A stretch of DNA of 64,000 nt, from assembly GCA_005223185.1 (NCBI GenBank), contig NJBN01000006.1, forward strand, positions 124,001 through 188,000. Reading direction: 5' to 3'. The notes under the pieces were generated by a model. The model saw nothing but the letters and a program-made list of their open reading frames with translations, did not search any database and had not been told where the DNA came from. The translations under genes were made by a program, and so were the position numbers. Positions 26,307 through 38,118 of this stretch are shown here, in pieces. How positions within the stretch are numbered: the stretch's first letter is position 1; each line of letters opens with the position of its first letter. The stretch comes from a candidate division LCP-89 bacterium B3_LCP (GTDB lineage Bacteria > Electryoneota > B3-LCP).

Positions 26307-28844
26307 TCAGAACAAATCATCCAGATCGTCATCGCCACCTCCGCCGGGCATCTCACCGTACTGTTGTAAATGCAACTGGATCAGTTCGCTCTCCCGCTTG
26401 GAATACATCCTATCCTCCTCCCAGCAGAACAGAGTGCCTTGCGGTTGTGAATCGCATTCATCCAGCAGTCCGCCTTTCACATCCGCTGTCCCCACAATCT
26501 TGGTTACTTTCTTTGACGCATCCGCAATCTGATACACTCCTTCACAGACGGGAATATCAGCAACGTTGTCTTCTGTTAAAGGCTGCCATTTATCCGGCGG
26601 CAGAAAAGCAGGGGTGATATTAGCGCGCAGGTGGCAGCGCAGACAGTTCAGTGCAGCGGCTTCGGCATCAGCGGTGGATAGAGTCCCTTCGATCACTCCG
26701 AACGATTTAACCCGCTCTTGCGGTTCAGCCAGAATCGGCCGCACTGGTTTTCTACTGTGGAAATCCTCGTCTATACCCAGGAAAGGATCCAGATTCAATT
26801 CATCGGGGGCAGGCTCCTCTTCAATCCCTCTTCCGCCCAGTTTCCTGTCGATAGAATCAGCAGCCTGGCGACCTGCAGCTATGGCATCGATCACCGAAGT
26901 AGGTCCGGAAACGGCGTCTCCAGCAGCGAAGACTCCGGGGATATCGGTTTCCAAAGTTTCGGGATTAACTGCCAACATACCAGCAGGTAGTAATTTCAGA
27001 TCATTCTGCGAATCCATACCTTCCGCTTCCACTTGTTGACCAATAGCGATGATGATGCGATCGGCTTCAAGCTCTATAGTGTCGTTTTCATCGTATTGAG
27101 GGCTGAACTGCCCCTGGTCATCGAAGACCTGAACGCAGCGTTTGAAAGTTGCTTTTATCGCGTTATCGCCAGATTCAGCAAATTCTTGCGGACCCCAGCC
27201 CGGCTTAATTTTTACACCTTCAGAAGTAGCCTGAGCAATCTCCCACTGGTGCGCGGGCATCTCATCGAGGGCTTCCAGGCAGACCATGGTGACGTCATCC
27301 GCACCTAAGCGTCTGGCACTCATAGCTGCATCGATGGCTACGTTACCGCCACCGATTACGATTATCTTTCCTGATAGCTTCCCACCCTCGCCATGACGAA
27401 TAGCAGAGAGGAAATCGAGCGCTTGTACAATACCCGCTATGTCCTCACCCGGTACGTTCAGCCGCCTCGACCCTGAAGTGCCTATGCTCACGAGCACCGC
27501 ATCGAATTTTTCATTCAGTAGATCTTTTAACTGAAAATCTTGGCCTAATTTTGCATTCAGCTTAAACGTCACACCCAGATCGTGAAGTGGCTGTAGCTCA
27601 TCATCTAAAACCGATTCAGGCAGCCGGTATGTGGGGATGGCGTTACGGAGCATGCCGCCCAGTTTAGCAGTTGCTTCGAAGACTTCCACTCCGTGCCCAG
27701 CTCTGGCTAAGTAATAAGCCGCCGTCAGTCCCGCTGGACCTGATCCTACAATTGCCACTTTTTTACCTGTGGATGCGGCTTTTGTCGGTTTGTCTAAACT
27801 ATCGCGCGGAGCGTTTTCATAGACGAAACGCTTCAGCGCACAAATCGCTAAGCTATCATCCAGATTGTCGCGCTTGCAGACATCTTCACAGGGGTGGAAA
27901 CAGACATAGCCCAAAATCCCGGGGAAGGGAACGCGGTCGTAGATAACCTGCAGCGCTCCTGCATAATCATTAGCGGCGATTCTCCTGATATAAGCCGGTA
28001 TATCTATCCCAGCAGGGCATGCTTCAATACAGGGAGCAGATCCACCATGCTGGACCGGCTTGGAGTCCGGTTTGTCCAGCAGAGCGCCGGTGGGACAGAC
28101 TTCCACGCAGGCTCCGCAGAAGCGGCAGTACGATTCCTGCAGATTCCCTTCTTTAGTCGTTCCGATCCATATTCTACCATCTTTAAGCGTTGCCCCCAAA
28201 ACGTCAACCCCTCGCACGTCCCGGCAGATGCGCACGCAGCGCAGGCAGCCGATGCAGAGATTATAGTCCCGTTCAAAGAAGGGATCGCTGGTGAATTTCG
28301 GTAACCCTTCCGGCTTGTACTTGGGTGTGCCGTCCGGCAGACCGATGAAATCTACAATCTTGCCCAGTTCACAGCGGTTCAGCAGGATACAGCAACGTTC
28401 GTCTTCAGGGACGTTGGAGGAACACTGGGTCAAGGAACAACCTTCACGCTGAGCGCAAGCCAGGCAGGCGTGCGGATGATGCGCTAATATTTTAGAAAGT
28501 GCTTCCTGGCGGGCTCGTTTTACCTCATCGCCCGTGGTGTGCACTATCATGCCTTCTTCTGCTTTAGTCTGACAGGCACGCACCAGCCCATCCATCCCTT
28601 CCACTGACACTAAGCAGAGGTTGCAGTTGCCATCGTCTCCGGTTTTTTCTTCAGAAAAGTCACCGATAATTATCTCTTCCCCTCGGTAAACCTGCTCTGA
28701 CCACTGCACCTCTCGAGCTGGAGGTAGGTCGGGATGACCGCAGATACCGGGGACATAAATCCCGTTCTTCAGCGCTGCTTTACGGACTGGCAGCCCTTCA
28801 GGGACGGTCAGAGTTTTATCGTCTATTTGGATTTGGATGGTCAC
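26307..28844 (-). CDS. bzdV: NuoG/GltD-like iron-sulfur flavoprotein, probable NAD(P)H:ferredoxin oxidoreductase
   Basis: An 845-residue fusion. Residues 1-100: plant-type 2Fe-2S domain (C35, C74, C77, C91). About 120-140: NuoG-like cluster (C127, C130, C136). About 197-250: two 4Fe-4S motifs (CIGCLRCVRIC and CRFCGACVEVCP). From about 270: GltD-type domain with CIEACPAGIDIP, FAD site VAIVGSGPAGLTAAYYLARAG and second nucleotide site VIGGGNVAIDAA. The end is Gly/Asp-rich. The spacing C35-C74 is much longer than in NuoG. It resembles the bzdV product, thought to reduce ferredoxin for benzoyl-CoA reductase; position after bzdM supports this. Electron bifurcation is possible but unproven. Confidence 0.8.
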   Translation of the reverse strand: MTIQIQIDDKTLTVPEGLPVRKAALKNGIYVPGICGHPDLPPAREVQWSEQVYRGEEIIIGDFSEEKTGDDGNCNLCLVSVEGMDGLVRACQTKAEEGMIVHTTGDEVKRARQEALSKILAHHPHACLACAQREGCSLTQCSSNVPEDERCCILLNRCELGKIVDFIGLPDGTPKYKPEGLPKFTSDPFFERDYNLCIGCLRCVRICRDVRGVDVLGATLKDGRIWIGTTKEGNLQESYCRFCGACVEVCPTGALLDKPDSKPVQHGGSAPCIEACPAGIDIPAYIRRIAANDYAGALQVIYDRVPFPGILGYVCFHPCEDVCKRDNLDDSLAICALKRFVYENAPRDSLDKPTKAASTGKKVAIVGSGPAGLTAAYYLARAGHGVEVFEATAKLGGMLRNAIPTYRLPESVLDDELQPLHDLGVTFKLNAKLGQDFQLKDLLNEKFDAVLVSIGTSGSRRLNVPGEDIAGIVQALDFLSAIRHGEGGKLSGKIIVIGGGNVAIDAAMSARRLGADDVTMVCLEALDEMPAHQWEIAQATSEGVKIKPGWGPQEFAESGDNAIKATFKRCVQVFDDQGQFSPQYDENDTIELEADRIIIAIGQQVEAEGMDSQNDLKLLPAGMLAVNPETLETDIPGVFAAGDAVSGPTSVIDAIAAGRQAADSIDRKLGGRGIEEEPAPDELNLDPFLGIDEDFHSRKPVRPILAEPQERVKSFGVIEGTLSTADAEAAALNCLRCHLRANITPAFLPPDKWQPLTEDNVADIPVCEGVYQIADASKKVTKIVGTADVKGGLLDECDSQPQGTLFCWEEDRMYSKRESELIQLHLQQYGEMPGGGGDDDLDDLF

Positions 28845-28845
28845 T

Positions 28846-30633
28846 TTAGTTTAGTGGTGAACTCAGAGCCTTTTCTCTGCTAATAGCCAAATTATCCTTT
28901 GCGCTAATCAAGTCAATTATATCTTCGTCAGCGTCTTTCCATAGTGAATCAACCAGAAAACTATAAGCTTTCTCCGCCTCTTCAAATTCGCTCAGTGCTA
29001 AATAGCAGTCACCTTTCAAGGCATAACTTATAGGATAGTAAATGGCACGCCAGGGGATACCAATACTGGCGTTGCTCTGGTTTAAAGCAGTCAGTGATTG
29101 AAGTTTTTCTAAACTGTTTATTGCTGACTCATAATCGCGTTTCCTGAATTGGCTTTCTGCCAACCAATACAATACAGCAGTCTTAACATCATTGTGAGTG
29201 GATTCCAGCTTTAGTATCGAATCGACCGCTTTCGTGGCTTCCAAAATATTCAATGAATCAGTGGACGATCTAACATCAACAAAGTATCCAATCCACGGGT
29301 GCTGCTCAGAAAGATCTCGATCAATAAAGTGCTTCGAATTGTCCGGTTCAGGCCCGAACATCCACATCTGAATCTTCAGCACCTTATTATCTGTCGAATT
29401 TTCTCCATTCACTATATGAATTTTAGCTTGTTCAAAATGATTATTTAAGAACTGATCGAATTGTATTTTCTCAATTATAAGGAACATTAATCCTATTCTC
29501 CCAAAGGTCCTAGCTATAGGATATTTCTCAGCAGTATTTTTAAAATAAAGGTTTTTAAGAGTATCAGCATATTGTTTGATAAGATCGAACTGCCCAATAT
29601 AAGGAAGTATGTCAACCAGTCTATTATATCCATCACGTTTTACTATGTCCCTTCCTGATTCCCCCGCACTCGACGATAATTGCTCAGTAGCTTTCTTAAA
29701 GTCTCCTCCCTGAACATACAATATCGCAAGTGCGTGGTCTACGTGGTAGTTGTTTCTTGAGATAGAGTGCTGTTTCTCCATATAAAGTATTCCTTCCGCG
29801 ACAGTGTTCGTAATGATATAAGCATGTGCAATTTCAAGATATAAACCGCCTGTTATGTGCTCTTCCTGTTTTTCGTTAACATATCTGGAAATACACTCTT
29901 CAGCTATACTTATAATTGCATTAAAATTTCCATTCTTACGGTAGAGTTTTAGCATCCCTTTTACAGCGGGCAAAAAGTCATGTTTAGAATCATTAAGTGA
30001 GATATCATTTGACCGCTGAAAGTACTCCTCAGCAGTAATAAAATCATCACATTGGACTGAATATTCTCCTACAAGATAATTATATAAATAATCATCAACC
30101 CATAAGGAAGTGTCCAGAAGCTGCAATTGCGATAGGCCAGCATCAAATCCATCTTCAACTCTCTTCTTAATGCTGTTTAACATATTCCAAACTATCGGAG
30201 CTTCTGCCGAATCACATTTATCTATTCCCTTTTTCGCTGCCCATAATGTGGAATCGTCAATAAGAGTCCACTGAAATGCTAATGCAAATTTCAAATATAT
30301 TTCCGTCGAAACAATACCTTGTTCAATTTGCTCATGGAAGGATTTCCTCGCCAAATGCATTAGGCCGGCATTAAAATAATAATCATCAAATTCCACAGTT
30401 CCTATTTCCGGTTTGAGGAATTTTTCTATAGTTTCATTTATCCAATTTCGGAACTCCGGACTAACAATATAGAGAGAAATGATACAAATTATAACACCAA
30501 TAACGATTTCCCTTAGGAATTTTTTTATCCACACTAACAATTTCTTTACCAGTTGCCAAAATATCCCAATTAATCGTTTCTGTGTTTGTTTGTTTGTTTG
30601 TTTGTTTGTTTTCCTTGCTTTGCTTTTTAACAT
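28846..30633 (-). CDS. Membrane-anchored TPR-type protein with possibly phase-variable start
   Basis: A 595-residue protein with one N-terminal membrane segment (IVIGVIICIISLYIV, residues about 45-60) and a long helical region of TPR-like repeats (for example CDDFITAEEYFQRSNDISLN and KGDCYLALSEFEEAEKAYSFL). The frame opens at ATG 30633 after a weak ribosome site, immediately before seven AAAC units (30611-30584). A much stronger site (AGGAGG, 711-706) serves ATG 30697, which is out of frame with 28846-30633 at seven units and comes into frame with six or nine. It breaks the bzdM-bzdV series, is AT-rich, and has no obvious pathway role. Confidence 0.75.
   Translation of the reverse strand: MLKSKARKTNKQTNKQTQKRLIGIFWQLVKKLLVWIKKFLREIVIGVIICIISLYIVSPEFRNWINETIEKFLKPEIGTVEFDDYYFNAGLMHLARKSFHEQIEQGIVSTEIYLKFALAFQWTLIDDSTLWAAKKGIDKCDSAEAPIVWNMLNSIKKRVEDGFDAGLSQLQLLDTSLWVDDYLYNYLVGEYSVQCDDFITAEEYFQRSNDISLNDSKHDFLPAVKGMLKLYRKNGNFNAIISIAEECISRYVNEKQEEHITGGLYLEIAHAYIITNTVAEGILYMEKQHSISRNNYHVDHALAILYVQGGDFKKATEQLSSSAGESGRDIVKRDGYNRLVDILPYIGQFDLIKQYADTLKNLYFKNTAEKYPIARTFGRIGLMFLIIEKIQFDQFLNNHFEQAKIHIVNGENSTDNKVLKIQMWMFGPEPDNSKHFIDRDLSEQHPWIGYFVDVRSSTDSLNILEATKAVDSILKLESTHNDVKTAVLYWLAESQFRKRDYESAINSLEKLQSLTALNQSNASIGIPWRAIYYPISYALKGDCYLALSEFEEAEKAYSFLVDSLWKDADEDIIDLISAKDNLAISREKALSSPLN
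30584..30611. repeat. Tetranucleotide tract, seven GTTT units
   Basis: Seven perfect GTTT units (AAAC on the coding strand) lie between the strong start site at 30697 and the body of the TPR protein, coding for Lys-Gln-Thr-Asn repeats. Unit changes alter the frame, as in contingency loci of host-associated bacteria. Confidence 0.95.
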
Positions 30634-30882
30634 TTCTCACTTCATCCGTTCTGGATTTATTTCTCACAGTAAGTCGTCTATTATTGCTTTTAGTCATGCT
30701 TTTACCCTCCTGTAAAATCGCATAGATGTTACTTAGAGTGATGGTATCTAGAGGAGATAATTTATTGATATACCTCCAGAGAGTAGTCACAACTTAGAAA
30801 TGCAAATTAAACTGAAAGTCTAACCTACTTTGAAGTCAATCACTTCATAATCCTATATAATGATCGGTTTAATAACTTCGTT

Positions 30883-31164
30883 CTACCAACTATGCACAAT
30901 CGCACCTGCCGTACACGCTTCTACGCAAGGAAGCGGCGGTCTGTCCGCGACCGGTTTGCAGTCGGCGCAGTCGTACTTGATTTTCTTGCGGAATTCTCCC
31001 TTGATTTCAGCGACCTCGTCATCGTAATCGTCCGTGATAATGGCGAACATACCTTTAGGGCAGCCTTCCAGACAGCCATGATCTGCACATTCGATGCACA
31101 AGTCTGTGTCGATGGTGATGTAGAATTCACCACTGCCATCCATGTAGCCGTAATTAGCTTTCAT
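30883..31164 (-). CDS. bzdM: Ferredoxin of benzoyl-CoA reductase cluster
   Basis: A 93-residue two-cluster ferredoxin. The first motif is CIECADHGCLEGCP (C-x2-C-x4-C-x3-C); the second is CADC, an 11-residue gap, then CVEAC. The atypical second half matches the ferredoxins coded beside class I benzoyl-CoA reductases, which pass low-potential electrons to the enzyme. It lies 33 bases after bzdQ in the expected order N-O-P-Q-M. Confidence 0.85.
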   Translation of the reverse strand: MKANYGYMDGSGEFYITIDTDLCIECADHGCLEGCPKGMFAIITDDYDDEVAEIKGEFRKKIKYDCADCKPVADRPPLPCVEACTAGAIVHSW

Positions 31165-32894: not shown

Positions 32895-33022
32895 TTGTTG
32901 GTTGATAGCAGTTGGCAGTTGGTTGTTAGCTGTTAGTATGCAAATGTATCGGGGTTGGGGATACCATGGGTACAGGCGACCCCGATTATGGTTAATTAAC
33001 TTGGGCAAGCCCCCGCGCTACC
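32895..33022. repeat. Degenerate repeat and half REP between bzdP and bzdO
   Basis: 32895-32936 reads TTGTTGGTTGATAGCAGTTG and on to GCTGTTAG, related to repeats at 21667 and 38484. 33004-33022 (GGCAAGCCCCCGCGCTACC) is one arm of the GTAG-headed REP. Between them ATCGGGGT and ACCCCGAT (about 32948-32987) can pair. Confidence 0.65.
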
Positions 33023-33037
33023 TTTCCCACGCACATC

Positions 33038-34336
33038 CTAAGATATTTTCTTCAAATCCAACCGTTCCATGAAGGAATCGATGCGGTCCATGGTGCGGGC
33101 TTCGTCGAATTCGCGGGAATCGCCCATGTTGCCTTCGAAACTCATGACGGGAACGCCCATATCGGTCAAACCCCAGTGGTTCTCCATAATACCGCAGGAC
33201 AGACCTTCGCAGCCTCGGTTCAGGTGTAGCATGATACCGTCTAAATCCCATTCATCATAGATGCGTTTCATCATTTTGGTCTTCAACGTGGGATCGTAGA
33301 AGTGCTGCCATTCCGGCTTGGACAGATTCCAGTCAGCTAAAATGCGTAGCGCTTGATCGCGCGTTTCGATCTTTATTCCCGCCTGTTCCGGGGTGGTTCG
33401 AGGACCCCAGGTGCCGTCAGGTTTGTCCTCCCAGATACCCACCAAGGAGAAGGTATATAGCGATCCCACCGAAACAGCGCCGAACTTTTCCAGATAGCGA
33501 AATACACTCAAGAACGCCCAGGGCGGCTGAGTGTCAGAAATCAAGCGGCACCTTTCGGTTGGCAGAGCTGCCACTCCCCGAGCTATGCGATCTTTCATCT
33601 CGTCGCGCACTTCTTCGTAAAAGTCGGCGTACTCCTTCTTCGCTTTGGAAAGAGTGCTGAAAACATAGAGCGAATACATGCTCTTTTCATCCAGCGGCGC
33701 GGGTTTATGCTTGTTCAAAACGCAGATTTCCGCCCAGGTGGAGGTCTGACGGCACTCATCATTGACAGCGGCGATCAGCTTCTCATCGTCATATTCCCTG
33801 CCGGTGGCTTTCTCCAGGAATTCGATGCCTTCATGCATCTGATCGACAACATATAGCAACTTGGGATCATCAAGATCCTTGTGCGGACCGACGGAGACGT
33901 CTATGCAGAAGTAGGGAATGTTCTCATATTCCGCCACATGCTGATCCCATTTACCGTGGCTGCAGCAAATGTGATCCTGCCAGGCGAAATCAGCTTTGGG
34001 AAATTCTCCACCAAAAGCCCACTTGTTCAGGTACATGGAACCCCAGTAATTACGCATATAAGCGCAGAGATCGCGCGCCCAGCCCTTGGCTTCGGTAGCT
34101 TCTAAGCATTCCAAGCTAAAATCCTTCATGAAGGCGATGGAAGCGGCATATGGTTCTCCAGTCAGCGGATATACGTCATCACCCAATCCGTAAGGAATCG
34201 CATCGAAAGACCAAGCACCACCAGTCCAGCGGATACCGCCCCTTTCATGAGCAGTCTGGTAATCCTTGTAGTATTTATCGCGAAGCTCCTTGGCTTTCTG
34301 CCAACATTTTAGGGGTTCGGATTTGTAGTTGGTCAT
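33038..34336 (-). CDS. bzdO: Benzoyl-CoA reductase, catalytic subunit O (BcrB/BzdO type)
   Basis: A 432-residue HgdB/FldBC-fold subunit. With subunit N it binds benzoyl-CoA and reduces the aromatic ring to cyclohexa-1,5-diene-1-carbonyl-CoA by two single-electron steps. Characteristic parts are [24 protein letters not shown] in pieces, [14 protein letters not shown], and the C-terminal [19 protein letters not shown], with cysteines for an Fe-S cluster. Length agrees with BzdO/BcrB. The gene is separated from bzdN by a four-helix-bundle gene within short repeats. Confidence 0.92.
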
Positions 34337-34350
34337 TGTATTACCTCTAA

Positions 34351-34382
34351 AGTTTCGAGTTGCGAGTTGCGAGTTGCGAGTT
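34351..34382. repeat. Heptanucleotide tandem repeat, 3' flank of four-helix-bundle gene
   Basis: AGTTTCGAGTTGCGAGTTGC and two more copies of the GAGTTGC unit end at the stop codon of the four-helix-bundle gene. Its reverse complement, ending AACTCGAAACT, matches the other flank at 34782. Confidence 0.85.
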
Positions 34383-34781: not shown

Positions 34782-34805
34782 GTAACTCGAAACTAGAAAC
34801 TAGAA
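34782..34805. repeat. Short repeat, 5' flank of four-helix-bundle gene
   Basis: AGTAACTCGAAACTAGAAAC then TAGA, overlapping the bzdN stop codon. AACTCGAAACT is repeated inverted at 34351-34361, so the four-helix gene lies between imperfect inverted repeats. Confidence 0.75.
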
Positions 34806-38049: not shown

Positions 38050-38088
38050 TGTGTCCTCATTTATTTGGATAATTCTGTATTCTTCGAT

Positions 38089-38118
38089 AGGGTTTAGGGA
38101 TTAGGGTTTAGGGATTAG
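38089..38118. repeat. 14-base tandem repeat at the 3' end of four-helix-bundle gene B
   Basis: AGGGTTTAGGGATT is present twice, then AG. The repeat codes for the last residues (LLIPKP) of the four-helix-bundle protein and continues past its stop codon. Confidence 0.88.

Follow-up and report, generated by a model that had tools for sequence, protein, structure and literature searches.

In the window, the 64,000-nucleotide stretch of DNA analysed here, a perfect tract of seven AAAC units (minus strand) lies between two start codons of unequal strength and the rest of a tetratricopeptide (TPR) protein gene that has been inserted into a BcrAD/HGD-D operon. We consider the chances about even that this arrangement acts as a translational switch of the licA type, and that it does so at a low rate, since seven units imply a low expected switching frequency. 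At present the locus stands as a clean and cheaply testable candidate switch. The features on which this reading is based are collected in Table 1.

Table 1. Features of the TPR gene, its repeat tract and its neighbours in the window.
Feature	Position	Strand	Remarks
845-aa Fer2/Nqo3-type and pyridine-nucleotide oxidoreductase	26307..28844	-	GTG start, without Shine-Dalgarno site
595-aa protein: basic N-terminus, apparent membrane helix, TPR units	28846..30633	-	Pfam TPR_2/TPR_19 above cut-off
Strong-start frame, 78 codons	30461..30697	-	At 7 units, not in the TPR frame
A7 run, downstream of the tract	30520..30526	-	With one A lost, ATG 30697 would also lead into the long frame (sequence)
Degenerate flanking unit(s), GTTTCTGT on + strand	30576..30583	-	Repeat family D1
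(AAAC)7+A tract; GTTT on + strand	30583..30611	-	Slippage-prone; TNKQ repeats in every frame
AGGAGG Shine-Dalgarno site	30706..30711	-	8 nt before ATG 30697; duplex energy -10.8 kcal/mol
93-aa ferredoxin, upstream neighbour	30883..31164	-	Usually adjoins the 845-aa gene in relatives

Read on the minus strand from position 30711, the sequence runs AGGAGG-GTAAAAGC-ATG, with the start codon at 30697. The original prediction had placed this site eight bases from the ATG, had let the frame end in a stop at 30461 and had set seven GTTT units between this start and the TPR frame; all of this was found base for base, the tract consisting of seven perfect units plus one base (29 bases) on the plus strand. 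The second start codon, ATG 30633, opens the frame of 595 codons, and the tract sits between this codon and the membrane segment. When Shine-Dalgarno (SD) strength was scored as duplex energy against the anti-SD sequence ACCUCCUU, only 1.8% of called genes were as strong as ATG 30697, while ATG 30633 scored -3.3 kcal/mol, about the median for first starts as called, a set that includes wrongly called ones. As predicted, with seven units the long frame is entered only from the weaker start. A survey of 449 kb yielded 24 AGGAGG-N4-9-ATG pairs, half of which (12 of 24) fall at gene starts or into the gaps between called genes; nine of these 12 begin genes of at least 100 aa, and ATG 30697 is one of the three exceptions. 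Because its SD site ranks in the top 2% and most comparable sites begin genes, ATG 30697 probably is, or once was, a true start codon.

The reading frames were then recomputed for four to ten repeat units. With six or nine units, ATG 30697 is joined to the long frame and the product has 615 or 619 aa, in agreement with the prediction that the loss of one unit or the gain of two would have this effect. With seven, ten or four units, the long frame is opened by ATG 30633 (595, 599 and 591 aa, respectively). With five or eight units, neither ATG is in frame, and just unsupported TTG and GTG starts inside the membrane-anchor region are left. The tract is thus of a non-triplet kind at the 5' end of a reading frame, its unit number sets the frame, and the alternative starts upstream of it differ both in strength and in frame. 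In the proposed mechanism, slippage would have made the (AAAC)7 tract within the membrane-anchored TPR gene of the operon, and whole-unit slippage during replication would move the gene among three states: strong start (six or nine units), weak start (seven, as assembled) and essentially off (five or eight). Slippage in vivo and the resulting differences in expression are what we infer from this geometry. On this reading the TPR gene is currently in its weak-start state, and the switch is possibly incidental.

The tract is exceptional in this genome. In a third-order Markov sequence of the same composition and size (449 kb), 0.2 tetranucleotide runs of at least 15 bases are expected; one was observed, and its 29 bases far exceed the chance expectation from the genome composition. 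A further 318 kb contained no other run of that class, which makes (GTTT)7 the sole tetranucleotide tract of its length in the 767 kb surveyed, about 20% of the genome. Genome-wide, (AAAC)5 with at most one mismatch was found only at 30583-30611, and at least six AAAC units occur in just three of the 242 genomes searched, most of them from other phyla. The degenerate unit or units at its edge are possibly the eroded border of a once longer tract. The original prediction had not mentioned that the tract encodes a TNKQ repeat in all three frames. A GTTT tract of 13 units, a hypermutable length, was seen in a genome of another phylum (G117, L067:1501-1552).

Most known cases of phase variation through repeat slippage come from host-adapted bacteria, and several simple sequence repeat (SSR) loci per genome are usual, though not obligatory, in bacteria with contingency loci. 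In licA of Haemophilus influenzae and H. haemolyticus, a (CAAT)n tract lies just inside the 5' end with several starts upstream of it; it averages about 15-27 units, its length varies among strains, and phase variants have been isolated (PMC2992063). The tract described here resembles licA in that a tetranucleotide repeat near the 5' end picks start and frame through its unit number, with alternative starts upstream. In contrast to licA, it has seven units, is seen in one genome, belongs to an unrelated gene and is preceded by two start codons instead of three. For mod alleles with 5-11 AGTC units, switching has been summarized as "rare, if any" (De Bolle et al., as cited in PMC2992063). Tracts of 3-9 TAAA or 3-12 AGTC units are assigned to a "mutable" class with 1e-7 to 1e-5 changes per division, which is said not to result from selection for mutability, and the hypermutable range of tetranucleotides lies above 9-10 units (PMC4235727 and Table 1 therein). 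Seven units fall within the former ranges and short of the latter, although the repeat unit here is AAAC and the rate is carried over from other units. Considering the 15-27 units of licA, the rare switching of mod alleles with 5-11 units and the mutable class, we accept the geometry and a low rate of switching and regard selection as a contingency locus as unproven. The slipped-strand contingency locus of the original prediction is supported in part: the layout of starts and frames is real, the strong start looks genuine and the logic is that of a slippage switch, but seven units lie in the mutable rather than the hypermutable range, and the fifth of the genome surveyed contained no second tract of this kind.

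The A7 run, overlooked in the original prediction, offers a second site at which a one-base change joins the two frames. In the frame of ATG 30697, the segment 30697-30634 scores -3.7 bits over 21 codons and is not coding-like. Between the tract and the A7 run, the 16 codons score +4.2 bits in this frame and +0.5 bits in the long frame; this slight preference, from a short segment, makes the A7 run a second possible junction and fits, weakly, a junction there rather than at the tract. An unlikely alternative is that ATG 30697 is the true start and that the frame break is a sequence error or a recent lesion, either an extra unit or an extra base in A7. The strength of this start, the A7 run inside the interval and the codon statistics agree with it, but a tract of 29 bp is short enough to be covered by a single read. 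Furthermore, called ORFs of at least 100 aa cover 86% of the sampled genome and the conserved operon genes that were checked are unbroken, which argues against an error-ridden assembly. That the 78-codon frame serves as a regulatory leader peptide or belongs to a programmed frameshift is, in our view, highly improbable. Its strong SD site, its overlap with the TPR frame and the A7 run would suit such a role, but stop-restart coupling does not fit, since the TPR start is 172 nt upstream of the leader stop; a -1 ribosomal shift on A7 would go in the wrong direction, a +1 shift or the loss of a base being required; and no RNA structure beyond chance was detected (z of -0.29 and -0.18).

The TPR protein itself appears to carry its membrane helix at about residues 43-57. 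NCBIfam models gave only generic TPR likeness, with MamA and LapB far under the cut-off, and PADLOC gave no match. Homologues were found neither in 38 other members of the phylum nor in 22 genomes of other phyla, nor in plasmids or viral contigs; one weak TPR match (30%) came from a Gemmatimonadota genome. A peptide-pattern scan of a collection of 85,000 genomes returned no close homologue. A structure predicted from this one sequence was of poor quality (pLDDT of 42). In the literature searched, no paper brought together the terms tetratricopeptide, phase-variable and simple sequence repeat.

The operon encodes two BcrAD/BadFG ATPases, two HGD-D subunits, an enoyl-CoA hydratase, the ferredoxin and the 845-aa Fer2/Nqo3-Pyr_redox protein. 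It appears to be of the BcrAD/HGD-D, benzoyl-CoA-reductase type, and its genes would fit a benzoyl-CoA reductase or a 2-hydroxyacyl-CoA dehydratase alike. In relatives, the ferredoxin and 845-aa genes directly adjoin, often with a spacing of 17 nt (G016, G018, G019, G021 and G027). In other relatives, their junction holds palindromic repeats (G001), an IS200/RAYT-like ORF (G003; Y1_Tnp E=0.0012, below the Pfam cut-off) or a DUF2283 ORF (G033). Since the two genes usually adjoin in relatives, other inserts occur at the same place and the GC content of the TPR gene is low (0.37, compared with 0.49-0.56, about 0.51, in its neighbours), the TPR gene is, judged by sequence and gene order, a low-GC, lineage-specific accessory insertion at a variable spot. 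Together with the TPR gene, these inserts mark the junction as a repeated insertion spot in the phylum (L027, L028, L037 and L026).

This composition also bears on a further explanation, a neutrally evolving microsatellite in an N-terminal tail of low complexity that is rich in Lys, Gln, Asn and Thr, with translation starting at ATG 30633 or further in, ATG 30697 being fortuitous or a relic and changes in the tract playing no selected part. We judge it rather unlikely. The insert is AT-rich with an A-rich flank, the SD site of ATG 30633 is near the median and SD-poor starts occur elsewhere in the operon (ferredoxin, +3.2 kcal/mol), the stretch between the two ATG codons does not look coding, and seven units belong to the class that is not attributed to selection for mutability (PMC4235727). 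However, a top-2% AGGAGG site with good spacing and a frame that stays open through the tract is unlikely by pure chance, and a 29-base tract exactly where two starts of one gene diverge would be a coincidence.

Returning to the preferred low-rate switch, its effect may reach beyond the TPR gene. A single nucleotide separates the TPR stop from GTG 28844, the start of the oxidoreductase gene (28842-28848), and this GTG (SD energy +1.5), like the ferredoxin start, has no SD site. Because of this distance and the missing SD site, translation of the two genes may be coupled, and a knock-on effect on the downstream oxidoreductase would be possible. A scan for promoters and terminators found nothing above shuffled sequences. 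It is doubtful that a functional three-state (strong/weak/off) switch acts on the newly inserted TPR protein and, through GTG 28844, on the oxidoreductase of an environmental aromatic degrader. If it works, it would suggest bet-hedging of membrane or electron-transfer functions beyond host interaction and inside a catabolic operon.

Other repeats were noticed as well. The start of contig 10 (L085:1-91) contains long poly-C runs of 29, 32 and 26 C, which probably arose as an artefact during sequencing or assembly. Short heptanucleotide tandem arrays lie in or near gene spacers of the window (32908-32922, 34351-34382, 34784-34805 and 38088-38118), one of them just upstream of a start at 34336. 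Perfect heptamer arrays of at least 18 bases number five in 449 kb, compared with none expected, and the following 318 kb had none; within gene spacers, a period of 7 did not stand out clearly from other periods. Similar heptamers occur in the ferredoxin-oxidoreductase spacer of a further genome (G006).
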